Below, piece after piece: positions 6,176 through 13,868 of a DNA stretch of 64,000 nt (the stretch's first letter is position 1; each line of letters opens with the position of its first letter). Made by a program: the position numbers and the translations under genes. This DNA is from an uncultured Eubacteriales bacterium (GTDB lineage Bacteria; Bacillota; Clostridia; Oscillospirales; Acutalibacteraceae), in assembly GCA_949292775.1 (NCBI GenBank), contig CASFBL010000013.1:42873-106872 (forward strand). The letters are read 5' to 3'. The notes beneath the pieces are model-generated. The model ran no database searches. It was given only the letters and a program-made list of their open reading frames with translations, and was not told the DNA's origin.

Positions 6176-6202
6176 TGCATCACCCCGCCGCAGGATTTTG
6201 AA

Positions 6203-6220
6203 TGAGTAATCGTTTACTCA
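6203..6220. promoter_or_regulatory. LacI-family operator upstream of the regulator gene
   Basis: Near-perfect 18-base palindrome TGAGTAATCGTTTACTCA with the central CG typical of LacI-family operators and one mismatched pair. It starts 28 bases upstream of the regulator start codon. The rest of the gap up to 6410 is AT-rich and shows no gene. Confidence 0.75.
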
Positions 6221-6410
6221 CAATGCCAGTTTACAGCGATATTGCTAAAATGTCAATTAGATTTTTAAATTTTTTAAATGTTTGTTACAACGCATAAAAA
6301 GCTGCTCTTGTCTTTGTGAAGAACGCACAAACGCACTCTCGCATCAGTAGTTTTCTATAAAAAACGCACTTTTTCTTTGGAAATATGCGGAAAAATATCC
6401 AACTTTTTGG

Positions 6411-6439
6411 TTGACAGTAAATTTCTATAATACTATAAT
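6411..6439 (+). promoter_or_regulatory. Consensus sigma-A promoter of the D-glutamate/5-oxoproline operon
   Basis: TTGACA at 6411-6416, a 17-base spacer, and TATAAT at 6434-6439: a perfect match to both boxes with ideal spacing. It lies about 100 bases before the first gene. Such a promoter implies strong basal transcription unless a repressor acts; no obvious operator overlaps it. Confidence 0.88.
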
Positions 6440-6539
6440 ATGGGGGTGAGTTAGGTTGTTTTAATTTCTGTGCAATGGTGGACAAAAATGGAAACGGCTT
6501 AACTTCTTTTATTTTAAAGAACACGGGGGAAAGAGAGCA

Positions 6540-7379
6540 ATGGAAAACATTGGCTACTACAACGGCAAAACAGATTTAATTGAAAACATGATGATTCCGA
6601 TGGGTGACCGCAGCGTCTATTTCGGCGACGGTGTTTATGACGCTACCTATTCGGTCAATCACATCATTTTTGCATTAGATGACCATTTAGACCGCTTTTA
6701 CAACAGCTGCCGGCTTTTGGAAATTCCTGCGCCGATGGAGCGCGAGAAACTGAAAGAAGCGCTTTACAGCTGTGTAAAGCAGGTAGACGACCCGAATCAG
6801 TTTGTCTACTGGCAGTGCACCCGCGGCACCGGCATTCGCAATCATGTATTTCCGGAAGGAAAGTCCAATCTGCTGATTTACTGCCTGCCCTGCCCGATGA
6901 AAGACCTTTCGCAGAAATACAAGCTGATTTCCATGGAAGATACACGATTCTATCACTGCAATGTGAAAACGCTTAACCTGATTCCGAGCGTTATGGCAAG
7001 CCAGCGCGCAGCAGAAAAAGGCTGTCAGGAAACGGTATTTCACCGCGGCGACTTGGTGACAGAATGTGCGCACTCCAATATTTCCATTATCAAAGACGGC
7101 AAATTTATCACACACCAGCTTGACAATTTGGTTTTGCCGGGCATCACAAGAAAGCACTTAATTCAGATTTGCAAAGAAAAAGGCATTCCCGTGGAGGAAC
7201 GCGACTACACGATGGATGATCTGCGTGCAGCGGATGAGGTCATTGTCACTTCCTCCGGTGCGCTCTGCATGGCGGCGTGTGAGCTGGACGGTCAGCCCAT
7301 AGGCGGCAAAGCTCCGGAAATCCTTAAGACCTTGCAGGACGCTTATCTTGAACGCCTGCACAAGGAAACCGACCGCTGA
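6540..7379 (+). CDS. dat: D-amino-acid (D-alanine) aminotransferase, PLP fold-type IV
   Basis: PLP enzyme of 279 residues that would interconvert D-alanine + 2-oxoglutarate and D-glutamate + pyruvate. The PLP lysine is K143 in NVKTLNL. GDRSVYFGDGVYD near residue 22 is the class IV N-terminal motif. An R-x-H pair (R100, H102, in GIRNHVFPEG) matches the carboxylate-binding loop of D-amino-acid transaminases and argues against a branched-chain L-aminotransferase. GDLVTECAHSNISII and the LPGITR loop complete the cofactor site. It is the first gene behind a consensus promoter and is followed by D-glutamate cyclase and 5-oxoprolinase genes, which fits a role in making or draining D-glutamate. Confidence 0.85.
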   Translation: MENIGYYNGKTDLIENMMIPMGDRSVYFGDGVYDATYSVNHIIFALDDHLDRFYNSCRLLEIPAPMEREKLKEALYSCVKQVDDPNQFVYWQCTRGTGIRNHVFPEGKSNLLIYCLPCPMKDLSQKYKLISMEDTRFYHCNVKTLNLIPSVMASQRAAEKGCQETVFHRGDLVTECAHSNISIIKDGKFITHQLDNLVLPGITRKHLIQICKEKGIPVEERDYTMDDLRAADEVIVTSSGALCMAACELDGQPIGGKAPEILKTLQDAYLERLHKETDR

Positions 7380-7396
7380 ACTCGGAGGCACTACAT

Positions 7397-8470
7397 ATGA
7401 CACAAAAAGAACTGACCGACCTGAACATCGGTCAAAATTTAGATAATCTCGCGAACTTGGCCCCGCGCGGCTACGGCGTCTGCCGGATTTTATATAAGGC
7501 GGCGCGCGAATTCACCGGCGAGCCGATGACCATGCACGCGGCAAAGCTGTTGTGCAACACGCTAAAGGAAGGCGATTTGGTCTATTTGATGACCGGATTT
7601 GTGCTGATCGACAACAAGTCCGCTGAGACCGACGGCATTGTCAGCACCATGCTTTTGGCGCGTTCTCTGGTTTTGGCGTTCGGCGTTAAGCCGGTTATCA
7701 TTTGTCAGGAAGAAAACATGGAAGCGGTGAAAAATCTTTCACGCGTTGTAGGGCTTCACCTGTATTCTTCGTTTGACGAATTGTTCGAGAACCCCGTTTC
7801 CATAGCAGCGTTTGCATTTACCAAAGACAAGGCGCAGGCGGAAAGCCAAGCTGACGAGCTTTTGTCGCACGGCATGCCCAAGGCAGTTATTGCCAACGAA
7901 TTTCCCGGCGAAAACTGCGTGGGTGAATTTCACAACGCCGTCGGCAGAAATACGACGCCGCTGGAAGCCAAAGGTGACATTTTATTTGAAAAAATCCAAG
8001 CTGCCGGCGTTCTCAATATTGCAATCGGCGACCTCGGCAACGAGCTTGGCATGGGCGCAATCGGCGCGCATTTGGACAAATACATTCCCTATGCGGCGAA
8101 AGGCGCATGCCAATGCGGCTGCGGCGGCGGAATTGCAACGCGTGTGGCGGCGGACAACATCATCACCGCCACGGTTTCAGACTGGGGCTGCTACGGCATG
8201 ATAGCCGCTATTGCTTATCTGTTAGGCGATATGGACATTATGCACGACGCAGAACTCGAAAAGGAAGCGCTTTGCACGGCGGCAAAAAGCGGCATGGTAG
8301 ACATGTACGGCTGGACCATTCCCGCGATTGACGGCTTCGATTTGCAAACCAACATGGCATTAGTCACCATGATGCGTGAATGCATTCGCTATGCACCGAA
8401 GCTTCAAACCAAGTGCAAAGCCTGGTTTGACAAAACACTCGAATTAAAATTTTTCGACGAAAACAAGTAA
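7397..8470 (+). CDS. D-glutamate cyclase-like protein, DUF4392 (C-terminal half of animal DGLUCY)
   Basis: A 357-residue protein of the DUF4392/glutamate-cyclase family, which forms the C-terminal domain of the mitochondrial D-glutamate cyclase DGLUCY (D-glutamate to 5-oxo-D-proline and water). Visible features are MTGFVLIDNKSAETDGIVSTM (a nucleotide-binding-like early segment), IGDLGNELGMGAIG in the middle, and a Cys/Gly-rich ACQCGCGGGIATR loop near residue 235 that resembles a metal or phosphate site. It starts 17 bases after the aminotransferase. The DUF1445 half of DGLUCY is encoded separately three genes downstream. Enzymatic function is inferred from the animal fusion; the bacterial family is little characterised. 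Confidence 0.8.
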   Translation: MTQKELTDLNIGQNLDNLANLAPRGYGVCRILYKAAREFTGEPMTMHAAKLLCNTLKEGDLVYLMTGFVLIDNKSAETDGIVSTMLLARSLVLAFGVKPVIICQEENMEAVKNLSRVVGLHLYSSFDELFENPVSIAAFAFTKDKAQAESQADELLSHGMPKAVIANEFPGENCVGEFHNAVGRNTTPLEAKGDILFEKIQAAGVLNIAIGDLGNELGMGAIGAHLDKYIPYAAKGACQCGCGGGIATRVAADNIITATVSDWGCYGMIAAIAYLLGDMDIMHDAELEKEALCTAAKSGMVDMYGWTIPAIDGFDLQTNMALVTMMRECIRYAPKLQTKCKAWFDKTLELKFFDENK

Positions 8471-8516
8471 AACGGCGGGCGGCCACAGCCGCCCCTTCTG
8501 CTTTTGAGGTGGTATT

Positions 8517-9245
8517 ATGAGCGAGCCCTTGATTTTACGCGGCGGCGACAGTGCGCTGGTTGTGGAATTCGGTCGGGAAATCGACGAGTCCATCAACCGG
8601 CAGGTACACGCGCTAAACCACGCCATTTCGAATAAGCACATCATCGGCGTGACGGAAACGGTTCCGACCTTCCGCTCGCTGACGGTATATTTTGACCCGT
8701 CCGTGATTTCCGGAGAGAAACTGACAAGAAAGATTCGCAAATGCTGCCACAACCTGACCGAAGGCACAACGGAAGTTGAAAAAACAACGATGATTCCGGT
8801 TTTGTACGGCGGGAAATACGGCGAGGACCTCGAAAATGTTGCCAAGCATACCGGACTTTCGCCGGAAGAAGTCATCCGGTTACACAGTTCCGTGGATTAC
8901 CGCATTTATATGCTCGGCTTTTTGCCGGGGTTTGTTTACCTCGGCGGCATGGACAAACGGCTGTTTTGTCCGCGTCTTCCCACGCCGCGCACCAAAATCC
9001 ATGCCGGTGCGGTCGGCATCGGCGGCGAGCAGACCGGCATTTACCCACTCCCCTCGCCCGGCGGCTGGCAGTTAATCGGAACAACGCCGGTGCGCCCGTA
9101 TGATGCAGAGCGGGAAAAGCCCGTTTTATTTTCTGCTGGCGAGCACATTCGCTTTGTGCCGGTCACGGAAGAGGAATATTTGGAAATCGAAGAACAGGTT
9201 CGCCGCGGCGAATATGTTTGTAAAACCACAGGGGGTGCAAAATGA
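8517..9245 (+). CDS. pxpB: 5-oxoprolinase subunit B (KipI-like)
   Basis: One of three subunits of the prokaryotic ATP-dependent 5-oxoprolinase PxpABC, which opens 5-oxo-L-proline to L-glutamate. The 242-residue chain has the carboxyltransferase C/D fold, with GDSALVVEFG near the start, the central YMLGFLPGFVYLGG segment, and PRLPTPRTKIHAGAVGIGG followed by YPLPSPGGWQLIG. Its stop codon overlaps the pxpC start (ATGA), so translation is coupled. In Bacillus the KipI homologue was first known as a sporulation-kinase inhibitor; the oxoprolinase role fits this neighbourhood better. Confidence 0.93.
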   Translation: MSEPLILRGGDSALVVEFGREIDESINRQVHALNHAISNKHIIGVTETVPTFRSLTVYFDPSVISGEKLTRKIRKCCHNLTEGTTEVEKTTMIPVLYGGKYGEDLENVAKHTGLSPEEVIRLHSSVDYRIYMLGFLPGFVYLGGMDKRLFCPRLPTPRTKIHAGAVGIGGEQTGIYPLPSPGGWQLIGTTPVRPYDAEREKPVLFSAGEHIRFVPVTEEEYLEIEEQVRRGEYVCKTTGGAK

Positions 9246-10198
9246 GCATCCGTGTTATAAAACCGGGCCTGTTAACAACGGTGCAGGACTGGGGGCGCAT
9301 CGGCAGTCAGTCAATCGGCTTTAATGTTTCCGGCGTGATGGACCGCCGTTCTTACCGGCTTGCCAATTTCCTGGTCGGCAACTACACCGATGAGGCAGTT
9401 TTGGAAATGACCGCCATGGGCGGCAGCTTCGTCTTTTTAGAATCCAACTATATTGCCATTACCGGCGCGGACATGGGCGCGACGATTGAAGGCATAGAAG
9501 CGCCGATGTATAAAACGATTTTCGTGCGCGAGGGCGACACGCTTTCTTTTTCTGCGGCAAAAAGCGGAATGTATACTTATGTCGCGTTTGCGGGAGGCTT
9601 AGATGTGCCGCAGGTGCTCGGCAGCCGTTCCACCAATTTAAAATGTTCCATTGGCGGATTTGAGGGACGAAAGCTCAAAAGCGGCGACATTTTGCCGTTC
9701 CGAAACACATTAGACCACTTGGGCGGTTTGCACATTCATGCGCTGACACCGGAGGATTTCTCCCGAAAGGAAGCAACACTGCGTGTGGTGATGGGTCCGC
9801 AGGACGATTATTTTACGGACGAGGGCATCCACACCTTTTTAAACAAGCCCTATACAATTACGCAGAACGCCGACCGAATGGGATATAAACTGGACGGCGA
9901 GCCAATCGCATACAAAGACAGCGTAGATATTATTTCAGACGGCATTGTGTTCGGCAGCATCCAGGTGCCCCCTGCAGGGCAGCCGATTGTGATGCTTGCT
10001 GACCGCCAGACCACCGGCGGCTATGCCAAAATCGCAACCGTGGCAAGCGTCGATTTGCCGCTTCTTGTCCAGCGCAAACCGGGCGACACAGTGTGCTTTC
10101 AAAAAATTTCGGCAAAAGAAGCGGAAAAGCTTTATAAAAAAGAGCAAAAGCATTTTGAAGAACTGCTTTTACATTATGGGGAGGACTTAATATGCTAA
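9242..10198 (+). CDS. pxpC: 5-oxoprolinase subunit C (KipA-like, biotin-dependent carboxylase-related)
   Basis: Second carboxyltransferase-like subunit of PxpABC, 318 residues, the normal length. Family segments are [13 protein letters not shown] at the N-terminus, [17 protein letters not shown], and [24 protein letters not shown] in the C-terminal part. It overlaps pxpB by 4 bases and the following DUF1445 gene by 7, so the run 8517-10983 is tightly coupled. Placing DUF1445 between pxpC and pxpA means the YcsI-family protein is probably made in step with the oxoprolinase. Confidence 0.93.
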
Positions 10199-10983
10199 AC
10201 CCTTATGAGAACACCGCACCGCTTGCGGTGCGTCAGAAAATACGCGCCGGAGAAATCACCGGTCAAACCTCGGGAATGTGCTTAGGCTACGCGCAGGCAA
10301 ATCTTGCTGTGCTGCCGAAAGACCTTGCCTATGACTTTTTGCTGTTTACCCAGCGCAACCCGAAGCCCTGCCCGATTTTAGAGGTTTCGGATGTCGGCGA
10401 CCCGTGGCTTCATAAGATTGCAAAGGACTGCAATATTGCGACGGATATTCCGAAATACCGCGTCTATGAAAAAGGCGTTTTGGTTGGCGAATATACCGAT
10501 GTCACGAAGTTTTGGCGCGATGATTTGGTCGCCTTTTTGATTGGCTGCTCTTTCTCGTTTGAAGCGGAGCTGCTCGAATCGGGCGTGACCGTTCGCCACA
10601 TTGAAGAGGGCAAAAATGTGCCGATGTATTTGACCAACATTCCCTGCGAGCCTGCCGGGGTATTTTCCGGCAACATGGTGGTCAGCATGCGTCCCCTGCC
10701 CAACGACCAAATCGTGAAAGCGATTAACATCACCGCATCCATGCCGCGCGTACACGGCACGCCGGTGCATATCGGCGACCCGGAAGCAATTGGGATTCAC
10801 GACCTTAGCCACCCCGACTTCGGCGAGGCGGTCACCATTCGTCCGGGTGAAACGCCTGTGTTTTGGGCTTGCGGCGTCACGCCGCAGTCTATTGTGATGA
10901 ATTCCAAGCCGGATTTCTGCATCACGCACGCGCCCGGGCATATGCTGATTACCGATGTGAAAAACGCTGACCTGAAATTTTAA
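10192..10983 (+). CDS. YcsI/DUF1445 protein (N-terminal half of animal D-glutamate cyclase)
   Basis: A 263-residue DUF1445 protein, often labelled putative hydro-lyase. Features seen are [18 protein letters not shown] near residue 24, [21 protein letters not shown], the long conserved [15 protein letters not shown] stretch, and a C-terminal FWACGVTPQ and [12 protein letters not shown]. In mammals DUF1445 is fused to DUF4392 in the D-glutamate cyclase DGLUCY; here the two are separate genes in one operon. Translational overlap with pxpC and a 14-base gap to pxpA place it within the oxoprolinase unit. Its individual reaction is unknown; cyclase partner, racemase-like or hydro-lyase activity on 5-oxoproline are all possible. 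Confidence 0.88.
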
Positions 10984-10997
10984 GGGAGGGCTTTCTT

Positions 10998-11765
10998 ATG
11001 GCAAAAGTAGATTTAAACTGCGATATGGGCGAAAGCTTCGGCACTTACACGCTCGGACTTGACGCACAGGTCGCCCGCTATATTTCCTCCGCCAATGTCG
11101 CCTGCGGCTTTCACGCCTCAGACCCCGCGACCATGGCGAAAACCGTGAAAATTTTAAAAGAAAACGGCGTTGCCGCCGGCGCGCACCCGGGTTTTCCCGA
11201 CCTTTTGGGGTTCGGGCGGCGCAACATGAACATAAGCCCGGCGGACGCGAAAGCCTATGTGCAATATCAAATCGGCGCACTTCAAGCATTTTGCAAGGCA
11301 AGTGGATTGCCTTTACAGCATGTGAAGCCGCATGGTGCGCTTTACAACATGGCGGGTAAAGATTATGCTTTGAGCCGCGCCATTTGTGAGGGCATTGCCG
11401 AGGTGGACGACCGCTTGATTTTATTAGGGCTTTCCGGCAGTGAAATGCTGAAAGCTGCCAAAGACATCGGCCTTCGCGCGGCAAAAGAAGTATTTGCCGA
11501 CCGCGCTTATGAAGAGGACGGCTCTTTGGTTGCGCGCACAAAGCCGGGTGCTATGATTACCGATGAGGAAGAAGCGATTGAACGCGTCATCGGCATGGTG
11601 AAACATGGCAAGGTGAAAGCCTTGACAGGCAAAGAAATTGAAATAGAAGCGAATTCCATTTGCGTGCACGGCGACGGCGAAAAAGCGCTTGCTTTTGTTG
11701 AGAAGATTCGCACCGCGCTCGAAGGTGAAGCCATCACCATTGCACCGCTTCATGAAATTGTATAA
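10998..11765 (+). CDS. pxpA: 5-oxoprolinase subunit A (LamB/YcsF family)
   Basis: Third subunit of the 5-oxoprolinase, 255 residues. It has the family signatures [14 protein letters not shown] at the N-terminus (acidic metal-type residues), [27 protein letters not shown] and [12 protein letters not shown]. With PxpB and PxpC it hydrolyses ATP to open 5-oxo-L-proline. The upstream AGGGAGG is a strong ribosome site. It is the last intact catabolic gene before the damaged alanine racemase. Confidence 0.95.
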
Positions 11766-11783
11766 TTAAAGGAAGGACAATAC

Positions 11784-12874
11784 ATGCTGCCGCAAAGGGT
11801 TTATGCCGAGGTCAACCTCGACGCAATTTGTCAGAATATTCAAAACGCCATGGAAAAAGTCGGACCCGACACCAAAATTATGGCAATTATCAAAACCGAT
11901 GCCTACGGTCACGGCGCTGTGCCGATTGCACGCGCGCTTTCTGAAATCGGCTGCTATGCGTTCGGCGTAGCAACGGTACCTGAAGCTGTTCAGCTTCGGA
12001 AAGCAGGAATCGGGAACCCGATTTTGATTTTGGGCTATGTTTTCCCCACAGATTACGACGCGCTGCTCTCGGAAAAACGGTGACCATTCACATTAAGCTT
12101 GACACCGGCATGGGACGCATTGGCATGCAGCCGACCGAAGAAAGTGTTCAGGAAATTCAGCGCATCGCGGCGCTGCCGAACCTTGAAATCAACGGTATTT
12201 TCACACACTTTGCCTGTGCGGACGAGAAAGACAAGACCTCGTGCAACCTGCAAAAGAAGAAATATTTGGACTTCATTCGTCGTTTGGACGAAACGGGTGT
12301 TAAAATTCCGATTAAACACATGTGCAACAGCGCGGGCATCATTGAATTTGACGATAACTTTTTGAACATGGCGCGCAGCGGCATTATGACCTACGGGTTG
12401 TATCCGTCAAACGAAGTAGACAAATCGAAGTTGGAGCTTCACCCTGCTTTGCAATTAAAAAGCCATGTTGCCTTTGTAAAGACCGTTGACGCAGGCTTTA
12501 CAGTAAGCTATGGTTCTACCTATACGACCACCGGAAAGACCGTGATTGCGACCATACCCGTAGGCTACGGCGACGGGTATCCGCGTGCGCTTTCGAACAA
12601 GGGCAAAGTGCTCATTCACGGGCAATTCGCACCGATTGTGGGGCGCGTCTGCATGGACCAGTTCATGGTTGATGTCACCAATATTCCTAATGTGCAGCAA
12701 GGCGACGAGGTTACGATTATCGGGAAAGACGGCGACAACCGCATTACGGTCGAAGATGTGGCGGACAACGCTTACAGCTTCAATTATGAGTTCTGCTGCG
12801 GCATCAACAAGCGCGTGCCGCGTGTTTATATCCGTCACGGGGAAGTGTCCGAAATTGTGGACATGTTGGATTGA
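11784..12874 (+). pseudogene. alr: Alanine racemase, broken by an out-of-frame internal deletion
   Basis: Two overlapping frames (11784-12083 and 12080-12874) together encode one PLP alanine racemase. The first keeps the PLP lysine loop IIKTDAYGHG and ends at ILILGYVFPTDY plus eight residues. The second starts at IHIKLDTGMGRIG and keeps the catalytic Tyr region VSYGSTYTT, GYGDGYPR and GRVCMDQF. Compared with normal racemases, about 25 residues between the GY-x-x-P turn and the HIKLDTG strand are missing, and the frame is shifted by one base at a run of five A (12073-12077). Catalytic residues survive, but a barrel segment does not. It could be a true decaying gene, an assembly or consensus error, or, less likely, a frameshift-read variant. 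It would have supplied or removed D-alanine for the aminotransferase. Confidence 0.8.
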
Positions 12875-12935
12875 CAAAGCCGCGGTTTTCCTCTAAAATT
12901 TATTTTAGGAACCAATTCAACACGGAGCGAAATTT

Positions 12936-13499
12936 ATGGAATTTGATACTTTTGACGCCTTTGACGCCGGCATTGAGATGGGCGGGCTTCGCAACCGCAA
13001 CGAGATAAGGCTTTTGGTGTGTTATCTTCTGAAAGCGATTGACAAACCTGTGCCGAAGTCCCTGCTGTTGGACGCGCTTGTCGGTGAAGGGCTTGCCAAT
13101 TATTTTGAACTCAATGAGGCTGTTGCCGAGCTTTTAAAGAACGGCAATATTGACCGGGACATTGCAGAAGATGAAGAAGTTTTAACCGTTACACCGCGCG
13201 GGAAAGAGTCGGCAGAGCTGTTGGAAACCACGCTTCCGAAAACCGTGCGCGAAAAAGCGGTCAACTCCGGCATCAAGCTGATGACGCTTGCCAAAAATAA
13301 ACGGGAAAATAAAATTTTGACCGAGAAGTTGGAAAACGGCGGCTACAATGTCACCTTTATTCTCGGCGACGAGGGCAACGAGCTTATGCGCCTGACGGTG
13401 TTTGTCGCCGACAGCATGCAATTAGAAGCGGTCAAAAACAACTTCCTGCAAGACCCGGTGAAGCTTTATTCGAGCATTATTACCGCGCTGACCATTTAA
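12936..13499 (+). CDS. DUF4364 family winged-helix protein
   Basis: A 187-residue protein of the clostridial DUF4364 family. The N-terminal 80 residues (RNRNEIRLLVCYLLKAID, followed by LLLDALVGEGLANYFELNEA and VLTVTPRGKE) look like a winged helix with a wing hairpin. The C-terminal half (GYNVTFILGDEGNELMRLTVFVADS) looks like a small alpha/beta sensor domain. It follows the racemase remnant by 61 bases and ends at a strong terminator, so it may be cotranscribed with the D-glutamate genes. Whether it regulates them is unknown. Confidence 0.8.
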   Translation: MEFDTFDAFDAGIEMGGLRNRNEIRLLVCYLLKAIDKPVPKSLLLDALVGEGLANYFELNEAVAELLKNGNIDRDIAEDEEVLTVTPRGKESAELLETTLPKTVREKAVNSGIKLMTLAKNKRENKILTEKLENGGYNVTFILGDEGNELMRLTVFVADSMQLEAVKNNFLQDPVKLYSSIITALTI

Positions 13500-13510
13500 T
13501 TAAAAATAAA

Positions 13511-13547
13511 AACAGCCGTTTGGAAAAATCCAAACGGCTGTTTTTTC
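13511..13547 (+). terminator. Strong intrinsic terminator of the D-glutamate operon
   Basis: Perfect 13-base stem AACAGCCGTTTGG / CCAAACGGCTGTT around an AAAAAT loop, followed by a T run. It lies 11 bases after the DUF4364 stop codon. Confidence 0.92.
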
Positions 13548-13585
13548 TATAACCGGAACCTGCATGCAGGCTAAAAAGGACAAAA

Positions 13586-13613
13586 AAATAGCCCCCCTAT
13601 TGGGGAACTACTT
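13586..13613 (-). terminator. Terminator downstream of the 5S rRNA-like gene
   Basis: On the minus strand the hairpin AGTTCCCC-AATA-GGGGGGCT is followed by TATTTTTTT. It lies immediately 3' of the 5S-like sequence and so fits a minus-strand transcript. Confidence 0.7.
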
Positions 13614-13617
13614 TTAA

Positions 13618-13730
<113 letters not shown>

Positions 13731-13868
13731 AATGCAAGTCTTTTTTTCAAAAAAATTCAATTTTTTTAAACTTTTTTCAAAGAAAAAAATCCGGCGCGGC
13801 GGCAGGTGGTTTTTGACACGAAAAACATAACCTTTCACCGCGCTTTGGAAATATGAATATTTTGAAAA

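Follow-up and report, generated by a model that had tools for sequence, protein, structure and literature searches.

D-Glutamate is a mirror-image amino acid found in bacterial cell walls. The vertebrate D-glutamate cyclase DGLUCY (C14orf159; 9030617O03Rik in mouse) is reported to consist of two domains, DUF1445 and DUF4392 (PMC5339696). Genes for the same two domains are found in the operon described here, together with genes for a D-amino-acid transaminase type protein (dat), the 5-oxoprolinase subunits (pxpA, pxpB and pxpC) and alanine racemase (alr). The operon lies in a 64,000-nucleotide stretch of DNA (the window) from an uncultured Eubacteriales bacterium (GenBank assembly GCA_949292775.1, contig CASFBL010000013.1, positions 42,873 to 106,872). 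This gene cluster of a gut-type bacterium, which is common to many clostridia, probably turns D-glutamate into oxoproline and then into ordinary glutamate.

Mouse DGLUCY, assayed as a purified whole protein, is reported to cyclise D-glutamate with 5-oxo-D-proline as product and no formation of L-glutamate, and in human excretion 5-oxo-D-proline is said to be much above 5-oxo-L-proline (PMC5339696). According to the same paper, DUF4392 is conserved in vertebrates and invertebrates and DUF1445 in vertebrates only; a likeness to a protein named Asp/Glu/hydantoin racemase was also noted (PMC5339696). A DUF4392 protein of Thermococcus, TON_0340 (4fc5, 5gl4), is described as a weak Mn-dependent phosphatase, its hydrolysis of AMP being lost in two active-site mutants, and the domains of the animal fusion were proposed to have sequentially linked functions (PMC5132392). 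PxpABC is described as an ATP-dependent enzyme opening 5-oxo-L-proline, and the equilibrium constant (Keq, [Glu]/[5-oxoproline]) is given as about 0.035, so that cyclisation is favoured (PMC13274462).

Proposed pathway

The genes stand in the order dat, DUF4392, pxpB, pxpC, DUF1445, pxpA, alr, all on the plus strand behind one exact promoter pattern (Table 1). Genes, order and families were given in this way by an earlier sequence-only reading, and Pfam and NCBIfam matches and open reading frame coordinates bear it out. In the proposed series, Alr would interconvert L-alanine and D-alanine, Dat would form D-glutamate from 2-oxoglutarate with the amino group of D-alanine, possibly also with that of other D-amino acids, DUF4392 (a putative dinuclear Mn-type metal enzyme) and DUF1445 would convert D-glutamate to 5-oxoproline, and PxpABC would open 5-oxoproline to L-glutamate with the consumption of ATP. 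Because PxpABC spends ATP, the line would run one way towards L-glutamate. We are evenly divided on whether the operon is such a one-way linear salvage line, leading from D-amino nitrogen through D-glutamate and 5-oxoproline to L-glutamate. We infer that the bacterial proteins act like their studied relatives, that the D-glutamate end is served by DUF4392 and the oxoproline end by DUF1445, and that the flow has this direction. The sequence-only reading had proposed a route that recycles wall-derived D-alanine and D-glutamate; its sequence of steps from D-glutamate through 5-oxoproline to L-glutamate agrees with Keq and with the nested gene sets described below, and its wall origin of the D-amino acids found no support.

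Recurrence of the operon

A scan of Genome Taxonomy Database (GTDB) genomes with an alignment of seven DUF4392 sequences of the long form present in the window ("type II") gave 186 relatives, of which the top 80 were retained for annotation by blastp searches with the window proteins (loci are numbered with the prefix L). Their titles name clostridia or unclassified Bacillota or bacteria, mostly metagenome assemblies, and the isolates among them include Clostridium tyrobutyricum, Clostridium chromiireducens, Clostridium acidisoli and Mobilisporobacter senegalensis. Of the 73 loci with at least 1 kb of upstream sequence, 65 have a dat gene that precedes DUF4392 by no more than 1.2 kb in the same orientation. 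Among the 55 full loci, defined as those with 1 kb upstream and 6 kb downstream in view, 29 have all seven genes on the same strand, 15 lack alr only, 4 lack dat and alr, and 7 have smaller sets. The sequence-only reading had allowed that the neighbourhood might be unique to this contig; the link recurs, with dat, DUF4392, pxpABC and DUF1445 together in 44 of the full loci. alr is found in 33 of the 55, and dat is present in all 33 of these. Two main orders are seen, dat-DUF4392-pxpB-pxpC-DUF1445-pxpA-(alr) and, in Clostridium, dat-DUF4392-DUF1445-pxpA-(alr)-pxpB-pxpC. Of eight reduced-set loci, six have a DUF1445 gene somewhere in their genome. The operon is patchy, since only 10 of 245 genomes of the window's order (its own counted) have any DUF4392.

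Nested gene sets

A survey of 398 genomes of the phylum, drawn evenly and including that of the window, found DUF4392 in 43, DUF1445 in 64 (29 families) and pxpA in 121; the genomes are related, and the p values that follow are therefore indicative. pxpA is present in 63 of the 64 DUF1445 genomes (Fisher p 5e-38) and in 35/43 DUF4392 genomes (Fisher p 3e-13), and DUF1445 is present in 32/43 DUF4392 genomes (Fisher p 2e-20). Among genomes with pxpA, DUF1445 occurs in 31/35 with DUF4392 versus 32/86 without it (Fisher p 2e-7). The surroundings of DUF1445 were read in 51 of the 64 DUF1445 genomes, namely in the window, in 10 regions of one set of 20 and in 40 further regions. A tblastn search (E up to 1e-6) of the 38 DUF1445 regions with no DUF4392 nearby gave neither dat nor alr; in four of these regions (L174, L178, L180 and L194) all or part of the pxp genes lies beyond the sequence in view. 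dat, pxpABC, DUF1445 and DUF4392 occur all together in L140, L142 and L150, and dat is present in 4/6 regions with DUF1445, pxp and DUF4392 versus 0/38 without DUF4392 (p 1.1e-4). The window was chosen for having dat and was therefore left out of a second count, which gives 3/5 versus 0/38 (p 8e-4).

dat goes with DUF4392, and the oxoprolinase goes with DUF1445. The gene sets are nearly nested, pxpABC being the most widespread, followed by DUF1445, DUF4392, dat and alr. Nested sets are expected from a linear route extended backwards, and the pattern thus favours a series Alr-Dat-DUF4392-DUF1445-PxpABC. The mouse work, performed on the whole protein, did not assign the cyclisation to either domain; the association with dat points to DUF4392.

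The DUF4392 protein

The window DUF4392 keeps all six metal-binding acids of TON_0340 (E77, D79, E168, D212, E216 and D312) and thus looks like a complete metal enzyme rather than half a cyclase. This does not fit the claim of the sequence-only reading that DUF4392 and DUF1445 are two cyclase halves, nor does the fact that DUF1445 is lacking in 11 of the 43 DUF4392 genomes of the survey. The six acids are kept in 102/103 aligned DUF4392 sequences, the lone exception being an incomplete sequence, and together with the cysteines of a CxCxC insert (C238, C240, C242) they are invariant in 64/64 type II proteins. The insert is also present in 15/17 other long forms and in 0/22 short forms; C29 is found in 64/64, 0/17 and 1/22, respectively. 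With the AlphaFold2 model (predicted local distance difference test, pLDDT, 95.8), Foldseek at E 0.001 or better matches TON_0340 entries only (15 chains; best 3.2e-17, ~22% identity). A role of DUF4392 as 5-oxoproline racemase, considered in view of the racemase likeness noted in the mouse paper, was rejected, as the fold matches TON_0340 only and no racemase and the product of mouse DGLUCY is the D form, an argument that covers the long form less firmly.

A tree of 60 DUF4392 sequences, midpoint-rooted for drawing, separates a short clade I (L140, L142, L150 and the DUF1445 pairs) from a long clade holding type II. All 21 type II rows form one group, with values of 99/98 at its fork and 100/100 relative to the other labelled groups, and are nested, within the long clade, among DUF4392 of other gene contexts. 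L142 and L150 have the window backbone dat-pxpB-pxpC-DUF1445-pxpA, to which a clade I DUF4392 is added either last or first. Because two deeply different DUF4392 occur in one backbone, both clades probably do one job. The L142 protein matches TON_0340 far better (1e-29) than the window protein does (1e-13). Elsewhere, in L157, L021 and L153, two to three DUF4392 copies lie close together, accompanied by neither dat nor DUF1445 nor pxp; their neighbours, as far as the eye can judge, are genes for peptide ATP-binding cassette (ABC) transporters or organic acids, and the family may have another use there.

DUF1445 and the oxoprolinase

All three pxp genes are present, pxpB and pxpC overlapping and pxpA one gene further. 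The model of DUF1445 (pLDDT 90.7) has the same fold as 2pif and 3db9. Across an alignment of 120 distinct sequences, three cysteines (C60, C119 and C227) never vary, and in the predicted model C119 and C227 are each situated at a strand end before a helix. That DUF1445 might be a two-cysteine isomerase is a clue rather than a finding, as its halves show no sequence repeat that could be detected. An internal duplication around C119 and C227 was discarded (hhalign of the halves, 0.1% probability; the symmetry is by eye only), as was a likeness to the nitrogen-repressor-like 3nek (Foldseek E 2.9e-6), which is too weak at a template-modelling score of 0.41-0.47 and a root-mean-square deviation of 10 A.

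A specific form of the pathway may be built on this lead: DUF4392 would be the D-glutamate cyclase and DUF1445 a D-to-L 5-oxoproline isomerase acting via C119 and C227, in a complete anaerobic pathway. We regard this as unlikely, and as tentative to the same degree the accompanying proposal that DUF1445 is an accessory letting PxpABC use the D form, while in vertebrate DGLUCY the cyclase would have been retained and the isomerase function lost or hidden. Such an accessory role would explain why DUF1445 occurs without pxpA in just one of 64 genomes.

Dat and alanine racemase

By sequence comparison, the window Dat can be classed as a class IV aminotransferase nearest to D-amino-acid transaminase. 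Its best NCBIfam match, TIGR01121, scores below the curated cut-off (219.9 vs 277.45), and it is therefore named as of this type and not as an equivalog. The best match in the PDB is the D-amino-acid transaminase 1daa (3.4e-48), whose TRGTSPRAH aligns with TRGTGIRNH of the window protein; R-x-H, which we take to be the carboxylate-binding motif, is thus present. TRG-x(1-4)-RxH is found in 67/71 Dat-like proteins of the related loci, and RxHxFP in the remaining four.

The window alr has 70 bases fewer than that of L027, so that the frame is shifted and both domains are not in one frame. The sequence-only reading had called it a remnant; it is indeed disrupted, and is better described as two open frames flanking the deletion. 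alr is in one uninterrupted frame in L027, L016 and L017. L027, the nearest relative, is a metagenome-assembled genome (MAG) of Candidatus Fimenecus excrementavium (DUF4392 94% identical, DNA 83-90% in aligned blocks). The deletion may be real or a fault of the assembly. No second alanine racemase C-domain (PF00842) was found elsewhere in the window's 98.6%-complete assembly, in which PF01168 has just two weaker matches and one Asp/Glu-racemase family protein is encoded. If the deletion is real, Dat could be the cell's route from D-glutamate to D-alanine. alr is present in all 30 genomes examined behind related loci. Among tested genomes with alr in the operon, this is the sole copy in 9/10 outside Clostridium, and at least two copies are present in 5/5 of Clostridium; the role of the operon alr therefore differs by lineage, being that of a housekeeping copy in some and of an extra copy in others.

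Alternative explanations

Several observations weigh against the linear salvage line. Neither DGLUCY domain visibly racemises, since the reported product of the mouse protein was 5-oxo-D-proline (PMC5339696), PxpABC is described on 5-oxo-L-proline (PMC13274462), and the nearest fold of DUF4392, TON_0340, showed a weak Mn phosphatase activity (PMC5132392). The match to the PxpC-specific NF045499 (246.6) is below the cut-off of 500, and Dat falls below the separate cut-off of its own family model. A cell with Alr can salvage D-alanine without Dat. dat is not upstream of DUF4392 in 8/73 loci, one of which, L089, has it downstream on the other strand; L049 and L063 consist of dat-DUF4392-DUF1445 with pxp not in view, and L060 of dat-DUF4392 only. 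Near copies (for example L101/L103, L052/L053, and L034/L036 from one MAG) mean that locus counts overstate independence. The nesting is imperfect, given the 11 DUF4392 genomes without DUF1445, several of which carry other DUF4392 types in other surroundings. L192 and L196 have DUF4392, pxp and DUF1445 without dat, and seven DUF1445-DUF4392 regions have neither dat nor pxp in view; with these seven pairs counted, dat is present in 4/13 versus 0/38 (p 0.003), or 3/12 without the window (p 0.011).

The main rival is a catabolism of both hands of pyroglutamate, to which we give a minority chance. PxpABC would open 5-oxo-L-proline, and DUF4392, with or without DUF1445, would hydrolyse 5-oxo-D-proline to D-glutamate, whose amino group Dat would move to pyruvate (giving 2-oxoglutarate and D-alanine) for conversion to L-alanine by Alr. 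This scheme has no D-to-L step at oxoproline, requires no isomerase and uses every gene, Alr included, in a sensible direction; the dinuclear metal site would fit lactam hydrolysis, and L049 and L063 carry dat-DUF4392-DUF1445 with no pxp in view at the locus. However, the hydrolysis would be uphill at the Keq given (PMC13274462), the mouse enzyme was observed cyclising (PMC5339696), and the D branch would have no need of pxp, yet dat and DUF4392 mostly occur with it.

Wall-precursor housekeeping, in which Alr and Dat would provide peptidoglycan synthesis with D-alanine and D-glutamate or keep these two in balance, and in which the other proteins (DUF4392, DUF1445, PxpABC) would only clear surplus D-glutamate and its cyclised product, appears quite unlikely. 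It would suit those lineages in which the operon alr is the sole alr, and the Asp/Glu-racemase family protein of the window's genome, but the further alr of at least one copy in all five tested Clostridium genomes is as for a dedicated copy in the operon, and in the 38 regions without DUF4392 neither dat nor alr was seen to accompany the pxp-DUF1445 set. Highly unlikely is the proposal that DUF4392 is a small-molecule phosphatase for phosphorylated oxoproline or gamma-glutamyl phosphate intermediates of PxpABC and no D-glutamate enzyme: the AMP hydrolysis of TON_0340 with Mn2+ and its loss in the mutants speak for it, but kcat/KM on AMP is reported as merely 1.9 x 10^2 M-1 s-1 (PMC5132392), dat tracks DUF4392 and not PxpABC, which points to D-glutamate, and DUF4392 is present in just 35/121 pxpA genomes.

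Transcription signals and neighbouring genes

Family calls for all genes, DUF4364 included, are over the Pfam cut-offs (accessions in Table 1). The perfect TTGACA-N17-TATAAT promoter reported before dat by the sequence-only reading was found again at the same place; the window contains the exact pattern 3 times and none of 100 shuffles contains it, and the match is therefore not expected by chance. Gaps of 17 bases (dat/DUF4392), 46 (DUF4392/pxpB), 14 (DUF1445/pxpA) and 18 (pxpA/alr) separate the genes, and pxpB/pxpC and pxpC/DUF1445 overlap. The one intergenic terminator-like site on the plus strand within the unit is a GC-rich hairpin without a clear T run (8477-8494, between DUF4392 and pxpB); over both strands of 6200-13700 there are 28 such sites, more than in shuffles (mean 12.8). 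Read-through transcription of the whole unit appears likely from these signals.

DUF4364, counted as an operon member by the sequence-only reading, probably forms a separate unit. It has its own promoter-like site and follows alr in just 6/80 related loci, all six close to the window and some of the 80 incomplete, and the operon end is therefore placed at alr. A 5S rRNA gene faces the operon just beyond its end, and no further rRNA reaches the Rfam gathering score in the window.

Table 1. Features in and around the operon (positions in the window)
Feature	Position	Strand	Evidence
Promoter-like TTGACA-N17-TATAAT, upstream of dat	6411-6439	+	exact match
dat, class IV aminotransferase, D-amino-acid transaminase type	6540-7379	+	PF01063
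DUF4392 (GLUCM-like_C), long form "type II"	7397-8470	+	PF14336 1.7e-86, 290.7 bits vs cut-off 27.9
pxpB, 5-oxoprolinase subunit	8517-9245	+	PF02682; TIGR00370 above cut-off
pxpC, 5-oxoprolinase subunit	9242-10198	+	PF02626; TIGR00724 above cut-off
DUF1445 (Pfam D-Glu_cyclase, NCBI putative hydro-lyase)	10192-10983	+	PF07286 6.5e-71; NF003969 above cut-off
pxpA, 5-oxoprolinase subunit (LamB/YcsF)	10998-11765	+	PF03746 8.8e-104; NF003814 above cut-off
alr N-terminal piece, before deletion	11784-12083	+	PF01168 positions 1-85
alr C-terminal piece, after deletion	12080-12874	+	PF01168 positions 115-220, PF00842, TIGR00492
Promoter-like site before DUF4364	12871-12899	+	11/12 matches, spacer 17; overlaps alr end
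DUF4364	12936-13499	+	PF14277
Long hairpin, terminator-like, after DUF4364	13508-13545		seen in sequence; scan lists minus strand only
5S rRNA gene	13622-13737	-	Rfam 58.4 bits

Seven members of recurrent neighbour groups were scanned against family libraries. No operon racemase besides alr was found among the neighbour clusters present in at least 4/80 loci, judged mostly by the start of one representative each. An Lrp/AsnC-type gene occurs in 14/80 loci (11 of 14 printed distances are 232-458 bases upstream, same strand). Clusters of ABC transporter genes of the branched-chain type, for the binding protein and for the permease, occur in 12 loci each, partly elsewhere or on the opposite strand, and an Na:alanine symporter in a 4-locus cluster including L040, as well as in L150, outside the 80. 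A cytidylate-kinase-like gene (PF13189, scanned in L101) lies directly before or overlaps the operon start in 7/10 loci of its cluster (examples L101:8449-9108 and L097:2617-3279), and in L101 it comes after a complete ABC transporter of the branched-chain type. In five loci, among them L054:15544-17333, pxpC is followed by genes for a biotin carboxyl carrier and a biotin carboxylase (family scan in L054 only). In two genomes that belong to one family, the DUF1445-DUF4392 pair is preceded by an amidohydrolase gene (L139:1659-3233, L141:4657-6231). Its product is a general amidohydrolase by Pfam (Amidohydro_3 in L141), with NCBIfam under cut-off, and a label of D-aminoacylase was not used, since the family scans give a general amidohydrolase only. 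The neighbour genes do not decide the direction of the pathway.

Comparison with known systems

The pxp-DUF1445 neighbourhood and the DUF1445-DUF4392 fusion are already known. Among 14 control genomes, PF07286 is present in one, that of Bacillus subtilis, and PF14336 in none, B. subtilis included. The ycsF/ycsG/ycsI/kipI/kipA operon of this organism is reported to hold pxpA, pxpB and pxpC (PMC10448178), which the window also has. YcsI is presumably its DUF1445 protein, a further feature in common. Unlike in the window, no dat or alr was seen with the pxp-DUF1445 type in the 38 DUF1445 regions without DUF4392. The pxpTABC system of Corynebacterium glutamicum also has PxpABC opening 5-oxoproline, but with a GntR regulator and an APC transporter, and the main text of its paper does not contain the string DUF (PMC13274462); the C. 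glutamicum control genome has neither PF07286 nor PF14336. The joining of dat (and alr) with DUF4392 and pxpABC in one operon was not found in searches of open-licence PMC literature, which did not cover the 2017 PxpABC discovery paper (PMC5625064). If the proposed line holds, strict anaerobes would return D-amino acids to the L pool via D-glutamate and 5-oxoproline, without an oxidase.

TON_0340 is reported to have the fold and the six metal acids that are also found in the window DUF4392 (PMC5132392), at ~22% identity and without the CxCxC insert in the alignment. The window protein is of the long form carrying this insert, whereas the short-form DUF4392 of L142 is nearer to TON_0340, itself reported to be 36% identical to the human domain. 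For gut bacteria, six homologues with the human protein in split form have been tabulated (PMC12547972). The operon makes it testable which domain cyclises and whether any bacterial enzyme acts on 5-oxo-D-proline. In DGLUCY the two domains are fused in one polypeptide, whereas in the window each has its own gene, in an operon that also carries dat, pxpABC and alr; if the proposal is true, the gene associations, dat with DUF4392 and oxoprolinase with DUF1445, would tell apart the two domains of a human mitochondrial protein that is still poorly understood.

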